Made by a program: the position numbers and the translations under genes
Shown here: positions 6,702-13,985 of the stretch, in pieces
Layout: each line of letters begins with the position of its first letter
Position numbering within the stretch: the stretch's first letter is position 1
Notes under the pieces: generated by a model
What the model saw: only the letters and a program-made list of their open reading frames with translations
Told to the model about the DNA's origin: nothing
The model's database searches: none
From: Micromonospora echinaurantiaca
GTDB lineage: Bacteria; Actinomycetota; Actinomycetes; Mycobacteriales; Micromonosporaceae
Direction: 5' to 3'
Length of the DNA: 64,000 bases
Assembly (NCBI RefSeq): GCF_900090235.1
Contig: NZ_LT607750.1
Location: 3,897,001-3,961,000 of the forward strand

Positions 6702-7903
6702 ACCCGCACCCCCTGCCCGGTCAGCCCCCACATGTCGATCACCGGTTTGTCGGTCTCCAGCCGGGCGTACTGCTCGTGCGGTGCGGCGATGACCAGCAGG
6801 TCGGCGCGGCGCAGCACCTCGTCGAGGTCGACCAGCCGCTCGTCGGCCACGTACGGGTCGGTGCAGAGCGTCTCGCGGGTCTTCAGCGCCAGGATCTTGC
6901 GCAGCTTGTACGCCAGGCTCTCCCGCGGGTCGTCGCTGCCGCCCTTGAACGCCATGCCGAGGATGCCCACGGTCAGCTCGGACAGGTCGAACCGGTCCTC
7001 CAGCCGGGACACCAGGTAGAGCGGCAGCCCTTCGTTGATCAGCATCGCCGAGTGGCCGAGCACGAAGTTGTTCCGGTTGAACGCGGCCAGCTGCATGGTG
7101 TCCTTGAACAGGCACGGCCCGGCGGCGAAGCCGGGCATCGGCAGGTCCGCCGCGCGCGGGTAGTCGAACGCCACCGCGTGCCGGATCCGGGCGAAGTCCA
7201 GCCCGAAGTCGTTGGCCATCATCCAGAACTGGTTGGCGGTGGCGAACTTGATGTACCGCCAGGTGTTGGTGAACAGCTTCGCCAGCTCGGCCTCCTCCGG
7301 CTCGAGCGGCACGATCTGCTCGGTCAGGTGCCGGAACAGCTTCTCCGCCCGGGCCAGCGCCGCCGGCGTACGCGCCGCGACGATCTGCGGCAGCGCGAAG
7401 AGCTCGGTCATCGCCCGACCCTCGGCGATCCGCTCCGGGCAGAACGCCACGTCCACCCGGATGCCCTTGCCGGCCAGCAGCTTCTCGGTCAGCGCGGTGA
7501 CGCCCGGGTAGACGGTGCTGCGCAGCACCACGAGCTGGCCGTCGCGCAGGTGCTCGGCGCAGCGATCCAGCGCCCGTGGCACGGCGGAGAGGTCCGGGTT
7601 GAGGTGCTCGTCGACCGGGGTGCCGACGACCACGACGAGGTGCTCGGAGACGCCGACGCTGGCCGGGTCGGTGGTCGCCCGCAGCCGGCCGGAGGCCACC
7701 GCCTCGGCCAGCGGCTCGGCCGCCCCCGGCTCGGCGAAGGGCAGCCTCGCCGCGTTCACCGTGGCGACCGCGTCGGCGTTGATGTCGTACAGCACCACCG
7801 AGAGCCCGCGCGCGGCGAACGCGATGCCCAGCGGCAGGCCGACCCGGCCACAGCCGCCCACGATGCAGACATCGACCGTGCTGACCGGCGGATCCTCGGA
7901 CAT
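6698..7903 (-). CDS. Nucleotide-sugar (UDP-glucose/UDP-ManNAc type) dehydrogenase
   Basis: A 401-residue NAD-dependent dehydrogenase that oxidises a nucleotide sugar to the uronate in two steps. It has an N-terminal Rossmann domain (VGGCGRVGLPLG), the catalytic Cys in GPCLFKD, and a C-terminal UDP-binding domain. The family includes Ugd, GDP-mannose dehydrogenase and WecC; I cannot choose among them. It is first in the minus-strand sugar operon and divergent from the AfsR-like regulator across 232 bp. Confidence 0.85.
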   Translation of the reverse strand: MSEDPPVSTVDVCIVGGCGRVGLPLGIAFAARGLSVVLYDINADAVATVNAARLPFAEPGAAEPLAEAVASGRLRATTDPASVGVSEHLVVVVGTPVDEHLNPDLSAVPRALDRCAEHLRDGQLVVLRSTVYPGVTALTEKLLAGKGIRVDVAFCPERIAEGRAMTELFALPQIVAARTPAALARAEKLFRHLTEQIVPLEPEEAELAKLFTNTWRYIKFATANQFWMMANDFGLDFARIRHAVAFDYPRAADLPMPGFAAGPCLFKDTMQLAAFNRNNFVLGHSAMLINEGLPLYLVSRLEDRFDLSELTVGILGMAFKGGSDDPRESLAYKLRKILALKTRETLCTDPYVADERLVDLDEVLRRADLLVIAAPHEQYARLETDKPVIDMWGLTGQGVRV

Positions 7904-8135
7904 GTTCTCGACTCCCGTGGGGGTGGCGGGGGTGTGGTTCCGGCGTCAGCCGGAATCCAAGCAGGTTATCCGCTGGAATGTGACTCGTGGGTAACCGAAC
8001 ATGCCGTCGCCGCTGACCTTTCGGCCGATGCGCGCGCTCACGAGGGGAGCCGCGAGCCATACATCGACTGGCATAATTACCTCGGCGGTGGTGTGGGGCC
8101 GACGACGGCCCGCGGGGGCACACAGCGGAGGTCGC

Positions 8136-10022
8136 ATGGGGCTGTCGTTCCAGATCCTCGGCCCGGTCCGGGTCCTCCGCGACGGCCGCCCGCTGCGGTT
8201 GCCGGCCGGCCGGCCGACCGCGCTGCTGGTCACCCTGCTGCTGCACGCCGGCGTGGCGGTCCCGGTGGAGCGGCTGCGCCAGGAGCTGTGGGGCGGGCAG
8301 GCCCCCGCCTCCGCGGTGGCGAACCTGCGCAGCCACGCCAGCCAGCTCCGACACCTGCTCAGCGGTCCCGGCGAACCGGTGCGGCTGCACGCCGAGGGCG
8401 GCGGCTACCGGCTCCGGGTGGCGCCGGGTGAGCTGGACGCCACCGAGTTCGAGCGGCTGGTCACCGAGGGCCAGGCGGCCCGCGCCCGCGGCGAGCCGGC
8501 CGTCGCGGCCAACCTGCTGGAGCGGGCGCTGGCGCTCTGGTCGGAGACCGAGCCGCCGCCGGCGTACGGGGCGGTGACGGCGGCCGCGTTCGACCGGCTG
8601 CGCGAGCGCCGGGCCGGCGCCCGGGAGGCGTACGCCGGGTGCCGGCTGGAACTGGGCGACCCCGGCAGCCCCGCGCTGCTGGCCCTGCTCCGCGCCCACC
8701 TGACCGAGTACCCGTTGCGGGAGCCGGCCTGGGCGCTGCTGATGACCGCCCAGTGTCGGGCCGGCGACCAGGCTGCGGCGGTGCAGACGTACCGGAGCGC
8801 GTGCCGGGCGCTCGCCGGGGAGCTGGGCGTCTCCCCCGGCCCCGAGCTGGCCGAGCTGTACCGCTCGGTACGCCGGCACGACCCGCGGCTGCTGCCGGCC
8901 GGCAGCCGCGCCCGCCCGCGCGCCCGCGGCCGGCCCACCGGCCCCGGCCCGGCGGCGGTGCCGCACGAGCTGCCCTGCGCCACCGCGCCCTTCGTCGGCC
9001 GGCACGCCGAACTGGCCCGCCTCGGTGCCGCGCTGGCCGGCGCCGGCGAGCGTCCGGTCACGGTGTCGGTCTACGGCATGGCCGGCACCGGCAAGTCGGC
9101 CCTCGCGCTGCGGGCTGCGGCCGCGGCGCTGGACGCCTTCCCCGACGGCCAGCTCCACCTCGACCTGGGCGGCTCGGTCGCGGACGCCCTGCTGCCGCCG
9201 ATCCAGGTGGCCAACCGGGTGCTCCGGTCGCTCTGCCCGACCTGCCGGCCGGAGCCGCCCAGCCTCGCCGAGGCCCGGGCCCGGATCCGGTCCCTGCTGT
9301 TCAACCGGCGGGTGCTGCTGGTGCTCGACAACGCCGCCGACGCCGCCCAGGTCGACGGTCTGCTGCCGGTACGCGGCGGCTGCGCGCTGCTGGTGACCAG
9401 CCGCACCCCGGTGCTCGACGGGGCGGACCGGCCGCTGCGGCTGGATCCGCTTCCCCCGGCGGACGGGCTCGCCCTGCTCCGGGCGGCGGCCGGCAACCGC
9501 CGGGTGAACGAGGAGCCGGAGGCCGCCGGCGCGGTGGTGGCGCTCTGCGAGGGGCTGCCGCTGGCGCTGCGTACCGCCGCCCGCCGGCTCGCCGAGGGGC
9601 CGCACTGGTCGCTGGGCCGGCTGGCCCGGTTGCTGCGCGACGAGCGCTACCGGCTCGCGGAGACCGGGCTGCGGCCCCGGCTGACCGCCAGCTACCGCCG
9701 GCTCGGGTCGGCCGCTCCGGTGTTCCGGCGGTTGGGCCGGGCCCGGCCGGGGCCGGTCACCGCCGAGCTGGCCGCCGCGCTGACCGGCCAGCCGCCCGAG
9801 GAGGCCGCGCGGGCCCTGGACCGGCTGGTGGCCGCGCAGCTCGCCGAGCCGGCCGGGCCGGGCCGGTTCCGCATCGGCGACCTGGTCCGGCTCTTCGCCG
9901 CCGAACTCGCCGCCGCTGAGCAGCCCGACCCCGGTCCCGACGCGGAGCGGCCCGGCCCGGACGACGGGCGGGCCGGACCGACCGTGCCAGGCCAGCGGCG
10001 CGCCACCGACCTGAGCGGCTGA
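8136..10022 (+). CDS. AfsR/SARP-type transcriptional activator with NTPase domain
   Basis: A 628-residue regulator. Residues 1-95 form an OmpR-like winged helix, 100-255 a bacterial transcriptional-activation (BTAD) domain, and 285-600 a STAND/NB-ARC-type ATPase with Walker A GMAGTGKS (314-321) and Walker B LLVLDNAAD (Asp398). The C-terminal TPR array of full AfsR is absent. SARP proteins bind direct heptamer repeats placed 8 bp from the -10; such sites occur at 13129-13218, which makes it the likely activator of the cysteine-rich-peptide genes. The ATG at 8136 follows GGAGGTC. Confidence 0.88.
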   Translation: MGLSFQILGPVRVLRDGRPLRLPAGRPTALLVTLLLHAGVAVPVERLRQELWGGQAPASAVANLRSHASQLRHLLSGPGEPVRLHAEGGGYRLRVAPGELDATEFERLVTEGQAARARGEPAVAANLLERALALWSETEPPPAYGAVTAAAFDRLRERRAGAREAYAGCRLELGDPGSPALLALLRAHLTEYPLREPAWALLMTAQCRAGDQAAAVQTYRSACRALAGELGVSPGPELAELYRSVRRHDPRLLPAGSRARPRARGRPTGPGPAAVPHELPCATAPFVGRHAELARLGAALAGAGERPVTVSVYGMAGTGKSALALRAAAAALDAFPDGQLHLDLGGSVADALLPPIQVANRVLRSLCPTCRPEPPSLAEARARIRSLLFNRRVLLVLDNAADAAQVDGLLPVRGGCALLVTSRTPVLDGADRPLRLDPLPPADGLALLRAAAGNRRVNEEPEAAGAVVALCEGLPLALRTAARRLAEGPHWSLGRLARLLRDERYRLAETGLRPRLTASYRRLGSAAPVFRRLGRARPGPVTAELAAALTGQPPEEAARALDRLVAAQLAEPAGPGRFRIGDLVRLFAAELAAAEQPDPGPDAERPGPDDGRAGPTVPGQRRATDLSG

Positions 10023-10099
10023 CGCGCCGAGACGCGCGCGGCCCGACGACGGGCGGACCGCCGGCGGTGTCCCGCGCGGAACCCCGGCGGGCGACCCGC

Positions 10100-11944
10100 T
10101 CAGGCCGGGGTGGCGCTCTGCTCGCGGTAGCCGCGCGCCTGGAGGGTGAACAACCGGGCGTAGCCCCCGCCGGCGGCGAGCAGCTCGTCGTGGCCGCCGT
10201 GCTCGGCGATCCGGCCGTCGGCCAGCACCACTATGCTGTCGGCGTCGCGCACCGCGTTCAGCCGGTGCGAGATGAGCAGGCTGGTCCGGCCGGCGCGCAG
10301 CCGGCGCAGCCGGGCGTGCAGGTCGTGCTCGGCCTCCGCGTCCAGGCCGGAGCTGGGCTCGTCGAGCACGAGCAGGTCGCGGTCGGCCCGCAGGAAGCCG
10401 CGGGCCAGCGCGATCCGCTGCCACTGGCCGCCGGAGAGGACCACGCCGGCCCGCGGGTCGTCCCGGTCCGGCCCGTCGAAGAAGATCCGGGTGAGCAGGG
10501 TGTCGTAGCCGCGGGGCAGGGCGGTGAGGGCGTCGTCGATGCCGGCGTGCCGGGCGGCGGCGCGCAGCCGGGCCCGGTCGTCCCGGGCGGCCAGGTCGCC
10601 GACCGCGATGTTCTCCCCGGCACTGAGGTCGTACGGCATGAAGTCCTGGAACACCGCGCCCAGCCGCTCCCGCAGCGCCGCCGGGTCGAACTCGCGCAGG
10701 TCCACCCCGTCCCAGCTGATCGAGCCGCGCTGCGGGTCGTAGAACCGGCAGAGCAGCTTCACCAGGGTGCTCTTGCCGGCGCCGTTGAGCCCGACCAGCG
10801 CGGTGGTCGACCCGGCGGGCAGGACCAGATCCACCCCGCGCAGCACCCACGGGTGCTCCGGCGAGTACCGGAACCACACGTCGCGCAGCTCGATCCCGCG
10901 CCGCAGCGGCGGCACCGGGCGGGGCGCGGCCGGCACCGGCAGGTCCGGCTCGGCGCGGATCACCTCGTCGTAGTGGTCGAACAGCAGCAGCGCCTGGTGG
11001 ATCGCGCCGAGCTGCCCGACCAGGCTGCCCAGCGCACCCTGCACCCCCGGCACGGCGGCCAGGTAGACCGCGACGTCGCCGGGGGTCAGCCCGCCGGCGG
11101 CGGCGCGGGTGACCACGTAGACCACGCCGGCCCCGGCCACCCCGGCGCCGAGCAGGCCGAGCAGCGCCTGCGCGCGGACCTCCCGGCGGTCCAGTCGCTG
11201 CTCCACCCGGTGCATGCCGCGCAGCTCGTCGAGCATCCGGTCGCCGAAGAACCGGCCGAGGCCGAACAGCCGCACCTCCTTGGCGGCGGGCAGCCCCACC
11301 AGCAACTGGGCGAAGAACAGGTCGCGCCGCTGGAAGTGTTCCAGGTGCAGGATCATCGCCGCGCGGGCCCGGTTGAGCCGTAGCTGCATCCAGAGCGTGG
11401 GCAGCGCCGCCACCAGCACCAGCAGCCCCACCACCGGGCTGAGCACCAGCAGCACGCCGAGGAAGCCGACGGCCACGATCACGCTCTGCACCCCGGCCAG
11501 CGCGCTGCCGGTCAGCTGGACGGGGCCGAGGTGCCCGGTCTGCTGGGCGGCCTGCAACCGGTCCTGGAACGCCGGGTCCTCCAACCGGGCGAGCCCGCCG
11601 AGGCGCTGCACGGCCGCGTACAGGTGGGCCCGGACCAGTCGGCTCACCGCCCGGGTCCGCTCGGCCTCCACGTACCGGCGCAGGTGCGGCAGGAGCACGC
11701 TGGTGGCGGCCACCACCGCCAGCCCGACCCCGAGCACGGCCAGCGGCACGGCCGGCCCCCGGCCGGTGGTCAGCTTGTCCAGCACCAGCTTGGTCAGCGC
11801 CGCGACGAGCACCGGCGCCAGGCCGCCGACCACCGCGAGCAGCAGGTCCGCGAACGTGCCCCCGGGCGCCGCCCGCCAGGTCAGGCCGACGGCCTGCCGG
11901 GCGTGCCGGGCGGCGCGCCGGGGCGAGAGCCGGGGACCGGTCAC
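10100..11944 (-). CDS. ABC transporter, fused membrane and ATPase domains
   Basis: A 614-residue half-transporter. The first ~330 residues contain about six transmembrane helices of the type-1 exporter fold. The ATPase domain follows, with GLNGAGKST (Walker A), LSGGQWQR (signature), LLVLDEP (Walker B) and an H-loop ISHRL. There is no N-terminal C39 peptidase domain, so it would export without cleaving a leader. The GTG at 11944 overlaps the redoxin stop (GTGA). Context suggests export of the 71-residue cysteine-rich peptide; a substrate cannot be assigned from sequence. Confidence 0.88.
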   Translation of the reverse strand: MTGPRLSPRRAARHARQAVGLTWRAAPGGTFADLLLAVVGGLAPVLVAALTKLVLDKLTTGRGPAVPLAVLGVGLAVVAATSVLLPHLRRYVEAERTRAVSRLVRAHLYAAVQRLGGLARLEDPAFQDRLQAAQQTGHLGPVQLTGSALAGVQSVIVAVGFLGVLLVLSPVVGLLVLVAALPTLWMQLRLNRARAAMILHLEHFQRRDLFFAQLLVGLPAAKEVRLFGLGRFFGDRMLDELRGMHRVEQRLDRREVRAQALLGLLGAGVAGAGVVYVVTRAAAGGLTPGDVAVYLAAVPGVQGALGSLVGQLGAIHQALLLFDHYDEVIRAEPDLPVPAAPRPVPPLRRGIELRDVWFRYSPEHPWVLRGVDLVLPAGSTTALVGLNGAGKSTLVKLLCRFYDPQRGSISWDGVDLREFDPAALRERLGAVFQDFMPYDLSAGENIAVGDLAARDDRARLRAAARHAGIDDALTALPRGYDTLLTRIFFDGPDRDDPRAGVVLSGGQWQRIALARGFLRADRDLLVLDEPSSGLDAEAEHDLHARLRRLRAGRTSLLISHRLNAVRDADSIVVLADGRIAEHGGHDELLAAGGGYARLFTLQARGYREQSATPA

Positions 11945-12480
11945 CGCGCCACCGGCAGGTCCAACCGGGCGATGCCGAACGAGTTGGCGGCCACCACGCC
12001 GTGCTCGTCGAGCAGACCGAACGCCGGGAAGCCCTTGACCCCGAAGGCGAGCGGCAGCGGGCCGGTGCCCGGCTCGACGAAGACGGTGGCCACGTCGGCG
12101 AAGCGGGCCGCGTACGGCTCGGTCTCCGGGCCCTTGCCGACCACCACCACCCAGACGTGCTCCGCCCCGCCCGGCATCTCCCGGGCCCGGTCCAGCAGGT
12201 CCGGGATCTGCGCCTCGCACAGGTCGCAGGCCGGCGAGAGGAACGCCACCAGGGTCATCGGCGGCAGGTCGGCGCGGGTGTGGGTGCGCCCGCGCAGGTC
12301 GGTGGCGACGAACTCGCCGGGCACCGAGCCGGGCTCCAGCATGGACTCCGGCAGGGTGGACTGCTTGTCGCCGAGCAGCTCGGTGTGCTCGCGCAGCCGG
12401 CGGATCACGCCGAGCGTCAGCACCAGGTTCAACAGGCCGAGGACGATGGCGACGACGACGGCGGCGGACAGGTACCACAT
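11941..12480 (-). CDS. Membrane-anchored TlpA/MauD-like thiol-disulfide protein
   Basis: A 179-residue protein with one N-terminal transmembrane helix (about residues 4-24) and a thioredoxin-like domain outside the membrane. The active site is C85-D-L-C88 within LSPACDLCEAQ. The order MauE then TlpA/MauD matches methylamine dehydrogenase clusters, where MauD and MauE are needed for disulfide formation in the small subunit. Here the neighbouring disulfide-rich candidate is the peptide at 13253. It shares an operon with the ABC exporter and MauE-like gene. Confidence 0.85.
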   Translation of the reverse strand: MWYLSAAVVVAIVLGLLNLVLTLGVIRRLREHTELLGDKQSTLPESMLEPGSVPGEFVATDLRGRTHTRADLPPMTLVAFLSPACDLCEAQIPDLLDRAREMPGGAEHVWVVVVGKGPETEPYAARFADVATVFVEPGTGPLPLAFGVKGFPAFGLLDEHGVVAANSFGIARLDLPVAR

Positions 12481-12521
12481 GGCGCACTCCTAGGTCGACG
12501 GACGGCGGGACGCGGGACGGC

Positions 12522-13094
12522 TCATCCCCGGCGGCGACCGGCGACGGGCGCGGCCGGCGACCGGCGGGACGGGGTGGGGGCGAACAGGGCGGCGAGGTCG
12601 TCGAAGCGGATCACCAGGGCGGCGACCGGCACCGCCGCGGCCAGGCCGAGCAGCAGCCCGGCGGGGCGCAGCGGCTCCGGCGGGGCCAGCGCGAGCACCG
12701 CCCAGCCGAACCCGGCGACCGCCAGCAGCACCGCGTTGCGCAGCACGTGCCGGGCGCCGAGCGGGGCACCGCCGGCGCCGAAGCAGCGGCACGCGGGACG
12801 GCGACCCCGGCGGACGGCCGCGACGATCGCCGCGCTGAGCACGCCGAGCAGGCCGGTCGCCACGGCGTAGCCGGCGCGCACCGTCGCCGGCACCGCGAGC
12901 AGCCCGACGACCGCCGCCTCCGCCGCCACGGCGAGGTACGCGGCCGCCGTGGCCCACGCCCGGGGCAGCAGGCCGAACTGGTCGACGGAGCGGGCGAACT
13001 CGGCGAACGCCGCCCGGCCGCGCACCTTGCCGACGACCGCCGCCAGGAACACCAGCGCCAGCGTCAGCCGGCCGGCGACCTCGACGTACCGCAT
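12522..13094 (-). CDS. MauE/DoxX-like redox-associated membrane protein
   Basis: A 190-residue integral membrane protein with about four helices. The C102-R-C104-F-G motif between helices is typical of the MauE family, which is thought to pass oxidising equivalents to a partner thioredoxin. The ATG at 13094 follows GGGAGG; a longer start at 13154 would cross the operator region. It is first in the mauE-tlpA-ABC operon and is read from the heptamer-controlled promoter at 13129-13161. Confidence 0.82.
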   Translation of the reverse strand: MRYVEVAGRLTLALVFLAAVVGKVRGRAAFAEFARSVDQFGLLPRAWATAAAYLAVAAEAAVVGLLAVPATVRAGYAVATGLLGVLSAAIVAAVRRGRRPACRCFGAGGAPLGARHVLRNAVLLAVAGFGWAVLALAPPEPLRPAGLLLGLAAAVPVAALVIRFDDLAALFAPTPSRRSPAAPVAGRRRG

Positions 13095-13128
13095 CGGCGC
13101 CTCCCTGCGCTCGGATCGGGCAGGGCAC

Positions 13129-13161
13129 ACGGTAGGGGCCGGTGATACAGCCACGGATACA
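13129..13161 (-). promoter_or_regulatory. SARP-type operator/promoter for the mauE-tlpA-ABC operon
   Basis: On the minus strand TGTATCC (13161-13155) and TGTATCA (13149-13143) are direct repeats 12 bp apart. Exactly 8 nt separate the second repeat from TACCGT (13134-13129), a -10 hexamer with no good -35. This is the operator layout known for SARP activators (heptamer repeats about 11 bp apart, 8 bp from the -10). Confidence 0.65.
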
Positions 13162-13187
13162 TCCGCGACCGGCGTCGGGCGGCACGA

Positions 13188-13218
13188 TGTATCCCGCTGT
13201 AACCGCCCGTCGTACGGT
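13188..13218 (+). promoter_or_regulatory. SARP-type operator/promoter for the cysteine-rich peptide gene
   Basis: TGTATCC (13188-13194) and TGTAACC (13198-13204) are direct repeats 10 bp apart. Exactly 8 nt separate the second from TACGGT (13213-13218). Transcription would begin near 13225, with the strong GGGAGGTGAT ribosome site and ATG at 13253. The layout mirrors the divergent promoter at 13129-13161; the two outer elements also form a 9-bp inverted repeat (13155-13163 and 13186-13194). Confidence 0.65.
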
Positions 13219-13252
13219 CCGTCGCATCCGACGCGGCGAGGGAGGTGATCAG

Positions 13253-13468
13253 ATGTTTCGTCGGCTGGAAAACCTGGGCGAGCGCATGCTCGGCCTGTTC
13301 GTGCCGAAGGTGACCGCGGCTGCGGGCTGCCCGCCGGACCCGTGGTGCGCGCTGTGCGGGATGTGCCACTTCAAGCGGTGCAGCTACACCCCGTCGTGCG
13401 GCACGACCTGCGGCTCGTGCGGCTACTACTGCTCCGCGGGCGCCACCACGATGACCTCGCTGTGCTGA
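13253..13468 (+). CDS. 71-residue cysteine-rich peptide, putative precursor
   Basis: No family was recognised. Residues 1-25 look like a leader: charged start (MFRRLENLGER), a hydrophobic LGLFVPKV stretch and a small-residue TAAAG end. Residues 26-71 hold ten cysteines (26, 32, 35, 38, 43, 49, 53, 56, 60, 71) with CxxC spacings, two Trp/Tyr-rich turns and little charge, which fits a multi-disulfide or crosslinked peptide. The start is set by GGGAGGTGAT. It faces MauE/TlpA redox genes and an ABC exporter, and a type I-like signal peptidase follows on the other strand. It vaguely recalls the cysteine-rich methylamine dehydrogenase small subunit but is too short to be one. Confidence 0.8.
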   Translation: MFRRLENLGERMLGLFVPKVTAAAGCPPDPWCALCGMCHFKRCSYTPSCGTTCGSCGYYCSAGATTMTSLC

Positions 13469-13502
13469 GTGGGGTCGGGCGCGCCGCGGGGCCGGACTCC
13501 GG

Positions 13503-13985
13503 TCACGCGGCGCGCCGCTGCCGCGGCAGCCGGGGCCGCACCACCACGCCGAGCAGGTCGGCCGCCGGGATGTACCCGCACTCGCGCGAGTCGTAGCTGT
13601 ACGGCGGGTTGTCGCCGAGCACCACCAGGCGCCCCGGCGGCACCACCGGGTCGGCGCCCCCGCGCAGCAGCGGCACCCGGTCGATCGGGACCGGGTCGCC
13701 GGGCACCGCGTACGCCCGCTTGATCAGCAGCCCCGGGCCGGCGTCGCCGGGCCGGCCGGGATGCCCGGCGGTCATCGCCGCCGGGGCGGCCACCACGACC
13801 ACGTCGCCGGGGCGGACCCGCTCCACCGGCACCCGCCGGGCCAGCACCCGGTCGCCGGCCCGCAACGTGGGCTCCATGCTGCGCCCCACCACCGACACCA
13901 GCAACAGGTGCCGGCGCGCCCACCACAGCCCGGCGGTGGCCGACGCGAGCGCGCCGGCCACCGCGAGCCAGCCGAGCAGCGGCAC
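13503..13985 (-). CDS. S26-family signal peptidase
   Basis: A 160-residue membrane-anchored serine protease. One N-terminal hydrophobic helix (about 3-32) precedes the catalytic Ser36 in GRSMEPTL and the general-base Lys89 in IKRAYAVPGD; VVLGDNPPYSYDSR is the conserved box of the family. It is shorter than housekeeping LepB and resembles dedicated accessory peptidases. GTG at 13985 begins 4 nt after the pheT stop, so it may ride on pheST transcription. Position next to the cysteine-rich peptide suggests it removes that leader; this is inference. Confidence 0.85.
   Translation of the reverse strand: MPLLGWLAVAGALASATAGLWWARRHLLLVSVVGRSMEPTLRAGDRVLARRVPVERVRPGDVVVVAAPAAMTAGHPGRPGDAGPGLLIKRAYAVPGDPVPIDRVPLLRGGADPVVPPGRLVVLGDNPPYSYDSRECGYIPAADLLGVVVRPRLPRQRRAA

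Follow-up and report, generated by a model that had tools for sequence, protein, structure and literature searches.

A probable biosynthetic cassette for secreted disulfide-rich peptides in Micromonospora echinaurantiaca and other actinobacteria

A stretch of 64,000 nucleotides of the Micromonospora echinaurantiaca genome (contig NZ_LT607750.1, positions 3,897,001 to 3,961,000; hereafter the window, to which coordinates refer unless stated otherwise) contains six neighbouring genes that probably cooperate in making a secreted, disulfide-rich peptide. The host genome comprises 7.2 Mb in a single contig. An original prediction, made by reading the sequence alone, had proposed that a cysteine-rich peptide is encoded here together with its own oxidation, export, cleavage and control genes. 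The gene of the precursor peptide (13253..13468, ATG to stop, plus strand) is preceded by the ribosome binding site GGAGGTGAT (13241..13249, plus strand) and encodes 71 amino acids, consisting of a leader of 24 residues (13253..13324) ending in A22-A-A24 and a core of 47 residues (13325..13465). As predicted, there are ten cysteines near the C-terminus, all within residues 26-71. Divergently from the peptide gene, on the minus strand, lie the genes of a MauE-like membrane protein of 190 amino acids with a CRCFG motif and, by hydropathy, five hydrophobic segments (12522..13094; PF07291), a TlpA/MauD-like thioredoxin-fold protein with an N-terminal hydrophobic segment and a CDLC motif (11941..12480), and an ABC exporter composed of a membrane domain and an ATPase (10100..11944; PF00664 and PF00005, both above cut-off). 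The ABC and tlpA genes overlap by 4 bases, in agreement with the operon described beforehand. The gene of an S26 signal-peptidase-like protease (13503..13985, minus strand) is located 34 bases from the peptide stop codon, the distance originally given, and 4 bases after pheT. At the edge of the region an AfsR/SARP-family regulator with BTAD and NB-ARC domains (8136..10022, plus strand; PF03704 and PF00931) was found, again as expected. The peptide and S26 genes converge, and between them fold prediction places a strong hairpin (13479..13515; -43.2 kcal/mol, z -3.5, when folded within 13455-13515) that overlaps the 3' end of the S26 gene and lacks a T run. It is a possible terminator; a scan for consensus terminators gave no site over the hairpin region.

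Among 11 sequences, the window peptide and ten orthologues, L057 and L058 being omitted on account of unequal length, the ratio of nonsynonymous to synonymous polymorphism (pN/pS) amounts to 0.12 for the leader versus 0.45 for the core. The GC content at third codon positions of the window gene is 0.94. Based on these values the peptide is encoded by a real gene and is not a chance reading frame. In the upstream alignment of the window and its orthologues, GGAGGTGA of the ribosome binding site is invariant. The precursor has the sequence MFRRLENLGERMLGLFVPKVTAAA/GCPP..., the slash marking the cut between leader and core. P18, A22 and A24 are invariant in an alignment of 16 diverse peptides. 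Signal peptidase I normally recognizes A-x-A, and since A22 and A24 do not vary and the cassette encodes an S26 protease, these sequences make cleavage after A24 likely, rather than after residue 25. Of the division proposed originally, the leader was confirmed, whereas the boundary at residue 25 has to be moved to 24. Pairwise identity across the peptides amounts to 40% in the leader, 27% in the core and 20% in the core when the cysteines are disregarded, and many of the weaker matches have unrelated cores behind the common leader. A conserved leader, a variable core and dedicated processing genes, three of the features by which ribosomally synthesized and post-translationally modified peptides (RiPPs) are recognized, are all present.

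Nowhere is the leader strongly hydrophobic; its best 10-residue mean hydropathy is 1.4, and the family mean is 1.1. In the predicted structure residues 5-16 form a helix, with low confidence in this part. The model as a whole has a mean predicted local distance difference test score (pLDDT) of 72, and residues 31-70 are beta-rich with pLDDT 80-87. Profiles of the leader matched the 64-kb window at a single place. They matched none of 8458 reversed open reading frames from 42 other loci, namely the 40 ABC-selected loci and the two loci of a paralogous ABC type described below. Pfam and NCBIfam contain no family for the window peptide, nor does NCBIfam contain one for the 16 diverse peptides, among which a single match (E 0.16) was due to chance. 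A profile match to the PDB entry 9ngu (E 0.075), in which a signal-peptide-like N-terminal stretch aligns with the leader, was likewise judged to be chance. The suggestion that the peptide is defensin-like found no support, since no solved structure resembles the model: a Foldseek search of the PDB with this only moderately confident model gave nothing below E 3.4.

The number of cysteines provides strong, though indirect, evidence for disulfide pairing. Complete pairing predicts even numbers, and even numbers were found in 202 of 209 distinct peptides, corresponding to 118 of 124 clusters formed at 50% identity. The peptides came from the leader scans, restricted to lengths of 45-110 residues (no tally was kept of those removed on this ground), and from proteins collected separately, the named relatives among them. 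The number of cysteines was not a reason for removing any peptide, and one of the two leader profiles, the second, was built from peptides with at least four cysteines. The cysteine counts refer to whole peptides; a fixed cut, by which leaders that differ in length are divided, gives even numbers from residue 25 on in 105 of the 124 clusters. Over this part of the peptide, the numbers of Tyr, Ser, Thr, Gly, Arg, Pro, Lys and Trp are even in 49 to 73 of the 124 clusters. Even cysteine counts of 4, 6, 8, 10 and 12 occur, and the cysteines follow no common spacing. Seven peptides have an odd count; in our reading, one of them looks frame-shifted and another carries its odd cysteine in the leader. 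At one locus (L103) two convergent precursor genes, at 7559-7777 (plus strand) and 7863-8075 (minus strand) of that locus, encode peptides with 11 and 9 cysteines, which could possibly form a disulfide-linked intermolecular pair.

The 158 bases that separate the peptide gene from mauE contain, in the window and in 11 orthologues (L058 is not part of the upstream alignment), two divergent copies of one composite promoter-like motif. The copy facing the peptide gene has the form TGTA-N6-TGTA-N11-TACGGT (13188..13218, plus strand), that facing the mauE-tlpA-ABC operon the form TGTA-N8-TGTA-N11-TACCGT (13129..13161, minus strand). In its strict form, TGTA-N6/8-TGTA-N11-TASSGT, the motif occurs at only these two sites in the 7.2-Mb genome, and the backward control gave none. 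A looser form, TGTA-N6/8-TGT[AG]-N10/12-TA[GC]..T, is present in 12 of 12 peptide-facing and 11 of 12 mauE-facing copies, a conservation that exists partly by construction, the pattern having been drawn from the same alignment. The loose form is absent from the two other cassettes of the same genome (L013 and L014, described below; within this genome the loose search covered the cassettes) and occurs in one of ten other divergent loci, from which it follows that the composite motif belongs to this orthologue group. Typical SARP operators are direct repeats of about 11 bases. The original prediction spoke of a transcript from 13225; the conserved promoter-like elements lie at 13129-13218.

The active-site motifs of the putative processing proteins are intact. 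MauE matches PF07291 with 87.5 bits (cut-off 27), and CxCFG is found in all 63 MauE proteins of the collected loci. In TlpA, C85, C88 and P152 are invariant in 32 sequences, and CxxC occurs in 87 of 88 TlpA proteins of the collected loci; we read P152 as the cis-proline of the thioredoxin fold. The TlpA model (pLDDT 94) finds thiol-disulfide oxidoreductases and thioredoxins as its best Foldseek matches (ResA, CcmG, StoA and TlpA, from E 7e-7), so that CxxC, the cis-proline position and the fold agree with a thioredoxin-fold thiol-disulfide oxidoreductase. S26 matches PF10502 with 69 bits (cut-off 22.9) and TIGR02227 with 70.3 bits (cut-off 47), as does a signal peptidase of this family, and a permissive S-x-x-P motif followed by a basic pair is present in 75 of 75 S26 proteins, in its strict form in 56 of them. 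The ABC protein has only ABC_tran and ABC_membrane above cut-off. No C39 peptidase domain was seen in it, and the leader ends in AxA, unlike the substrates of C39 peptide exporters, in which such a domain goes along with a GG leader. PF02975 and PF06433, the models for the small and large catalytic subunits of methylamine dehydrogenase, gave no match in this genome and none in the control genomes either; the mau catalytic genes are likely absent.

A search of 250 genomes of the family for the peptide, with relatives at E <= 8e-16 taken as orthologous, identified it in 12 genomes besides its own; the named relatives belong to Micromonospora and Plantactinospora. All 12 loci have S26, MauE, TlpA, ABC and SARP genes beside the peptide gene, and in 11 of them pheT adjoins S26. 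The presence of the small gene next to mauE-tlpA in relatives had been set beforehand as a check, which the prediction passed. M. echinaurantiaca itself possesses a second cassette at genome positions 1666000-1682000 (L013), with a 61-residue peptide, and a third at 1633000-1648000 (L014), with a 79-residue peptide, both peptides containing eight cysteines. Each has its own leader-type peptide, MauE, TlpA, ABC, S26 and SARP genes, in differing orders. Five more MauE-type matches occur in this genome, at 5080545, 1861528, 1820486, 5548719 and 6652771; three of these loci were scanned (L015, L016 and L017) and contained no leader-type peptide. Among genomes of the same genus, S26 at E <= 1e-10 was found in 5 of 5 with an orthologous cassette versus 1 of 20 without the cassette ABC gene. 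In that single genome (G138, L381) the S26 gene still adjoins pheT, and the 3.4 kb examined contain none of the other cassette genes; this S26 is perhaps the remnant of a lost cassette.

Since a phylum-wide search with the peptide profile gave few matches (E <= 0.01 in at least 6 of 396 genomes, the own genome included, with 16 candidates scored in most genomes), the ABC protein was used as the anchor instead. In the 250 family genomes, searched with the ABC protein only, 104 contain a match at E <= 1e-130; five candidates were scored per genome, so that counts per genome are lower bounds. From these matches the first 40 new loci that ranked below the orthologues were taken, excluding the own genome, and neighbours were counted within 7 kb; eight loci are cut by contig ends and some are near-copies. 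TlpA was present at 39 of the 40 loci, S26 at 33, MauE at 24, SARP at 26 and a leader-type peptide at 33, the latter representing 32 distinct sequences of which 31 have an even number of cysteines. Among 15 loci at which the profile had found nothing, a more permissive inspection revealed a candidate peptide in two, L220 and L286, which were not counted; L220 is one of the seven peptide-less loci among the 40. Three loci (L254, L255 and L087) represent a sub-type in which TlpA is encoded twice. The leader of the L087 peptide is more divergent, and at L254 and L255 the profile found no peptide. A paralogous ABC type, 38-39% identical to that of the window, occurs at L153, L154, G004:C1:709725-711500 and G066:C137:16547-18334. 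L153 and L154 have no MauE, TlpA, S26 or leader peptide; a SARP gene is present.

Peptide and ABC protein also occur together at the level of genomes. Of the 37 genomes in which the peptide matches at E <= 1e-3, a threshold chosen after the search, 36 have the cassette ABC gene, versus 68 of the 213 others (Fisher 7e-15); the exception, G178, has a match that spans only residues 17-48. At the looser E <= 0.1 the ABC gene is found in 69 of 121 versus 35 of 129 genomes (1.8e-6). Both p-values are nominal because related genomes are not independent.

When named genomes were scanned with the ABC alignment, the best 80 of at least 584 confirmed relatives, some of which coincide with loci of the earlier sets (e.g. 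L256 and L138), included Streptomyces, Nonomuraea, Actinomadura, Lentzea, Nocardia, Nocardiopsis, Amycolatopsis, Catellatospora, Stackebrandtia and others. TlpA accompanies 75 of the 80, S26 71, MauE 53, SARP 35 and a leader-type peptide 59; Streptomyces viridosporus NRRL 2414 (L301), for example, has a cassette with a six-cysteine peptide. Some genomes contain many more precursors, most of them dispersed, than exporters. In a Stackebrandtia genome (G083) with one cassette-type ABC gene, 13 of 16 fetched stretches yielded 14 leader-type peptides, 15 distinct ones including that of the cassette; this genome has a second MauE-TlpA-S26 set without ABC (L145, G083:C2:681000-697000), away from the full cassette. 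G007 has 13 peptides, from 7 of 8 fetched stretches and longer loci, and one cassette ABC gene whose locus lacks TlpA, with TlpA genes elsewhere in the genome. G026 has 10 peptides, from 8 of 12 stretches and one longer locus, and two ABC genes. G046, which bears the same genus label as G083, gave no TlpA match, no match to the Stackebrandtia peptide at E <= 0.1, and three weak matches to the window peptide, the best with E 0.022. Processing in trans is known from the prochlorosins, and the distribution of the genes suggests that the dispersed precursors, too, may be processed in trans. That there is an actinobacteria-wide class of leader-guided disulfide-rich peptides, in which a single line for oxidation, export and cleavage would serve dispersed and unrelated cores in trans, has in our judgment about an even chance of being correct.

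We consider it likely that the six genes form a cassette dedicated to the biosynthesis of a secreted, disulfide-rich peptide, in which the ABC protein would export, TlpA and MauE oxidize, and S26 cleave after A-x-A. The original proposal of one system composed of a peptide and its oxidation, export, cleavage and control genes agrees with the conserved neighbourhood and its recurrence at unrelated loci, the cysteine parity, the intact motifs and the common promoter-like motif. Starting from what is observed, namely the set of genes present, the division of the peptide into leader and core, the active-site motifs, the even numbers of cysteines and the common motif, we infer from sequence each biochemical step, the order of the steps, the direction of oxidation, control by SARP and the activity of the product as follows. 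Two divergent promoters, from which the peptide gene and mauE-tlpA-ABC are transcribed, would be switched on by the SARP protein. The helical leader, which has no hydrophobic stretch of the Sec type, would address the precursor to the ABC exporter of the cassette. Outside the membrane TlpA, oxidized through MauE, would pair the cysteines, and S26 would cut after A22-A-A24, releasing a knotted peptide of 47 residues. As leader and machinery remain constant while the core is free to vary, the same line could make many different peptides, whose activity is probably antagonistic (bacteriocin-like) or signalling.

Several findings weigh against this model. Even counts fit disulfides and yield no pairing pattern. 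Within 7 kb, MauE is missing at 16 of the 40 ABC-selected loci, S26 at 7 and a leader-type peptide at 7, so that none of these three is indispensable at the locus. Pfam yields no match for the window TlpA at E <= 1. With the NCBIfam MauD model TIGR02661, whose cut-off is 188.6, this protein reaches 13.6 bits and is not a MauD by this measure; the homologue of L087 reaches 19.5 bits. Oxidation by TlpA is not certain, since the TlpA/ResA/CcmG type includes reductants. A hydropathy scan of S26 gave no 19-residue membrane segment above cut-off, which leaves its anchoring in the membrane unproven by this simple method, and its gene adjoins pheT, outside the mauE operon. Finally, a sigma-70 consensus scan of 13050-13560 found no site.

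The same genes might instead provide a secreted metal-binding protein, for copper for example, or a structural protein of the cell surface, with MauE and TlpA keeping the cysteines reduced for metal loading. The presence of the reductants CcmG and ResA among the Foldseek matches of TlpA would agree with such a role; the scores of the MauE proteins with the HvfX model of copper-RiPP maturation, 11.3 and 15 bits, point weakly in the same direction and at the same time lie far under the cut-off of 80. Hypervariable cores with even counts from 4 to 12 and no common spacing fit cysteine pairing better than a fixed metal site, and we regard metal binding or a structural role as unlikely. A RiPP with another cysteine chemistry, such as thioether or lanthionine formation by an enzyme encoded elsewhere, would share the layout of leader and core, and a leader helix with a dedicated exporter is common in RiPP clusters. 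Lanthionines, however, would not favour the even counts found in nearly all clusters, and no RiPP cyclase was detected above cut-off in the six window proteins, to which the scan was confined, other neighbours here and elsewhere not being scanned; we hold such chemistry to be quite unlikely.

The peptide could also be a plain Sec-secreted small protein cut by an ordinary signal peptidase, with ABC, TlpA and MauE as unrelated neighbours. The normal signal peptidase I motif in front of the core and the position of S26 directly behind pheT are what would be expected of it. Against it stand the lack of strong hydrophobicity anywhere in the leader, the recurrence of the neighbourhood at unrelated loci, the strict promoter-like motif that the peptide gene has in common with the mauE operon alone, and the occurrence of S26, which tracks the cassette. 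We regard this explanation as very improbable.

To our knowledge, few dedicated bacterial pathways for folding disulfide-rich peptides are known. The cassette is widespread and seemingly little studied, and with its recognizable leader, its probable cut site and 124 peptide clusters in the sampled part it offers a genome-mining handle for secreted knotted peptides. MauE gains a small, tractable test substrate, and the leader a possible use as a generic route for secreting oxidized peptides from actinomycetes; if the model is true, the common leader would open a plug-in route by which arbitrary cysteine-rich cores could be folded.

In sublancin and other glycocins, as in the cassette, an ABC exporter and oxidoreductases (Bdb) are dedicated to a disulfide peptide. 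Glycocins have a peptidase-containing ABC protein, a GG leader and a glycosyltransferase, in contrast to the separate S26 and the A-x-A leader of the cassette. The mau cluster resembles the cassette in that MauE and a thioredoxin-fold protein, MauD or TlpA, act with a cysteine-rich small protein (cited in PMC7794033); it differs in that the cassette TlpA falls far under the MauD cut-off and in that the proposed target is a hypervariable peptide. The actifensin clusters of Actinomyces likewise combine a cysteine-rich peptide and leader with ABC transporters and variable homologues, and three disulfides were inferred for actifensin from its mass (PMC6989792). They contain a subtilisin-like protease and a LuxR regulator in place of S26 and SARP, so that the cassette does not belong to the actifensin type, and actifensin has a defensin-like structure, whereas none was found for the moderately confident model of the cassette peptide; a word search of the actifensin paper gave no thioredoxin, peptidase or SARP (PMC6989792).

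Closest to the cassette are three candidate RiPP families of Streptomyces listed by decRiPPter (2020), which contain mauE, in one case also mauD, and precursors with at least eight cysteines, with no other mau orthologues reported, in clusters filtered for a transporter, a peptidase and a regulator (PMC7794033). They share with the cassette mauE, the cysteine-rich precursor and the transporter, peptidase and regulator genes, and one of the decRiPPter strains, like the genome of the L301 cassette, is a Streptomyces viridosporus. The paper argues, citing van der Palen 1997 for MauE/MauD, that the mauE families act in RiPP modification; by its account the role of MauE has so far only been speculated on (PMC7794033). 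In the open-licence literature, bioRxiv preprints being outside the scope, no experimental or later work on these families was found. Since mauE-containing candidate clusters had already been listed, the cassette, predicted to be undescribed, is so only in part. The decRiPPter text, compared by description only, was found to mention neither a leader family nor an A-x-A site, and it does not deal with a role of S26, with the parity of cysteine numbers or with precursors dispersed over the genome. Newly added here are the leader family, the logic of the A-x-A site and S26, the evidence from parity, the private promoter-like pair, the breadth of occurrence and the dispersed precursors.

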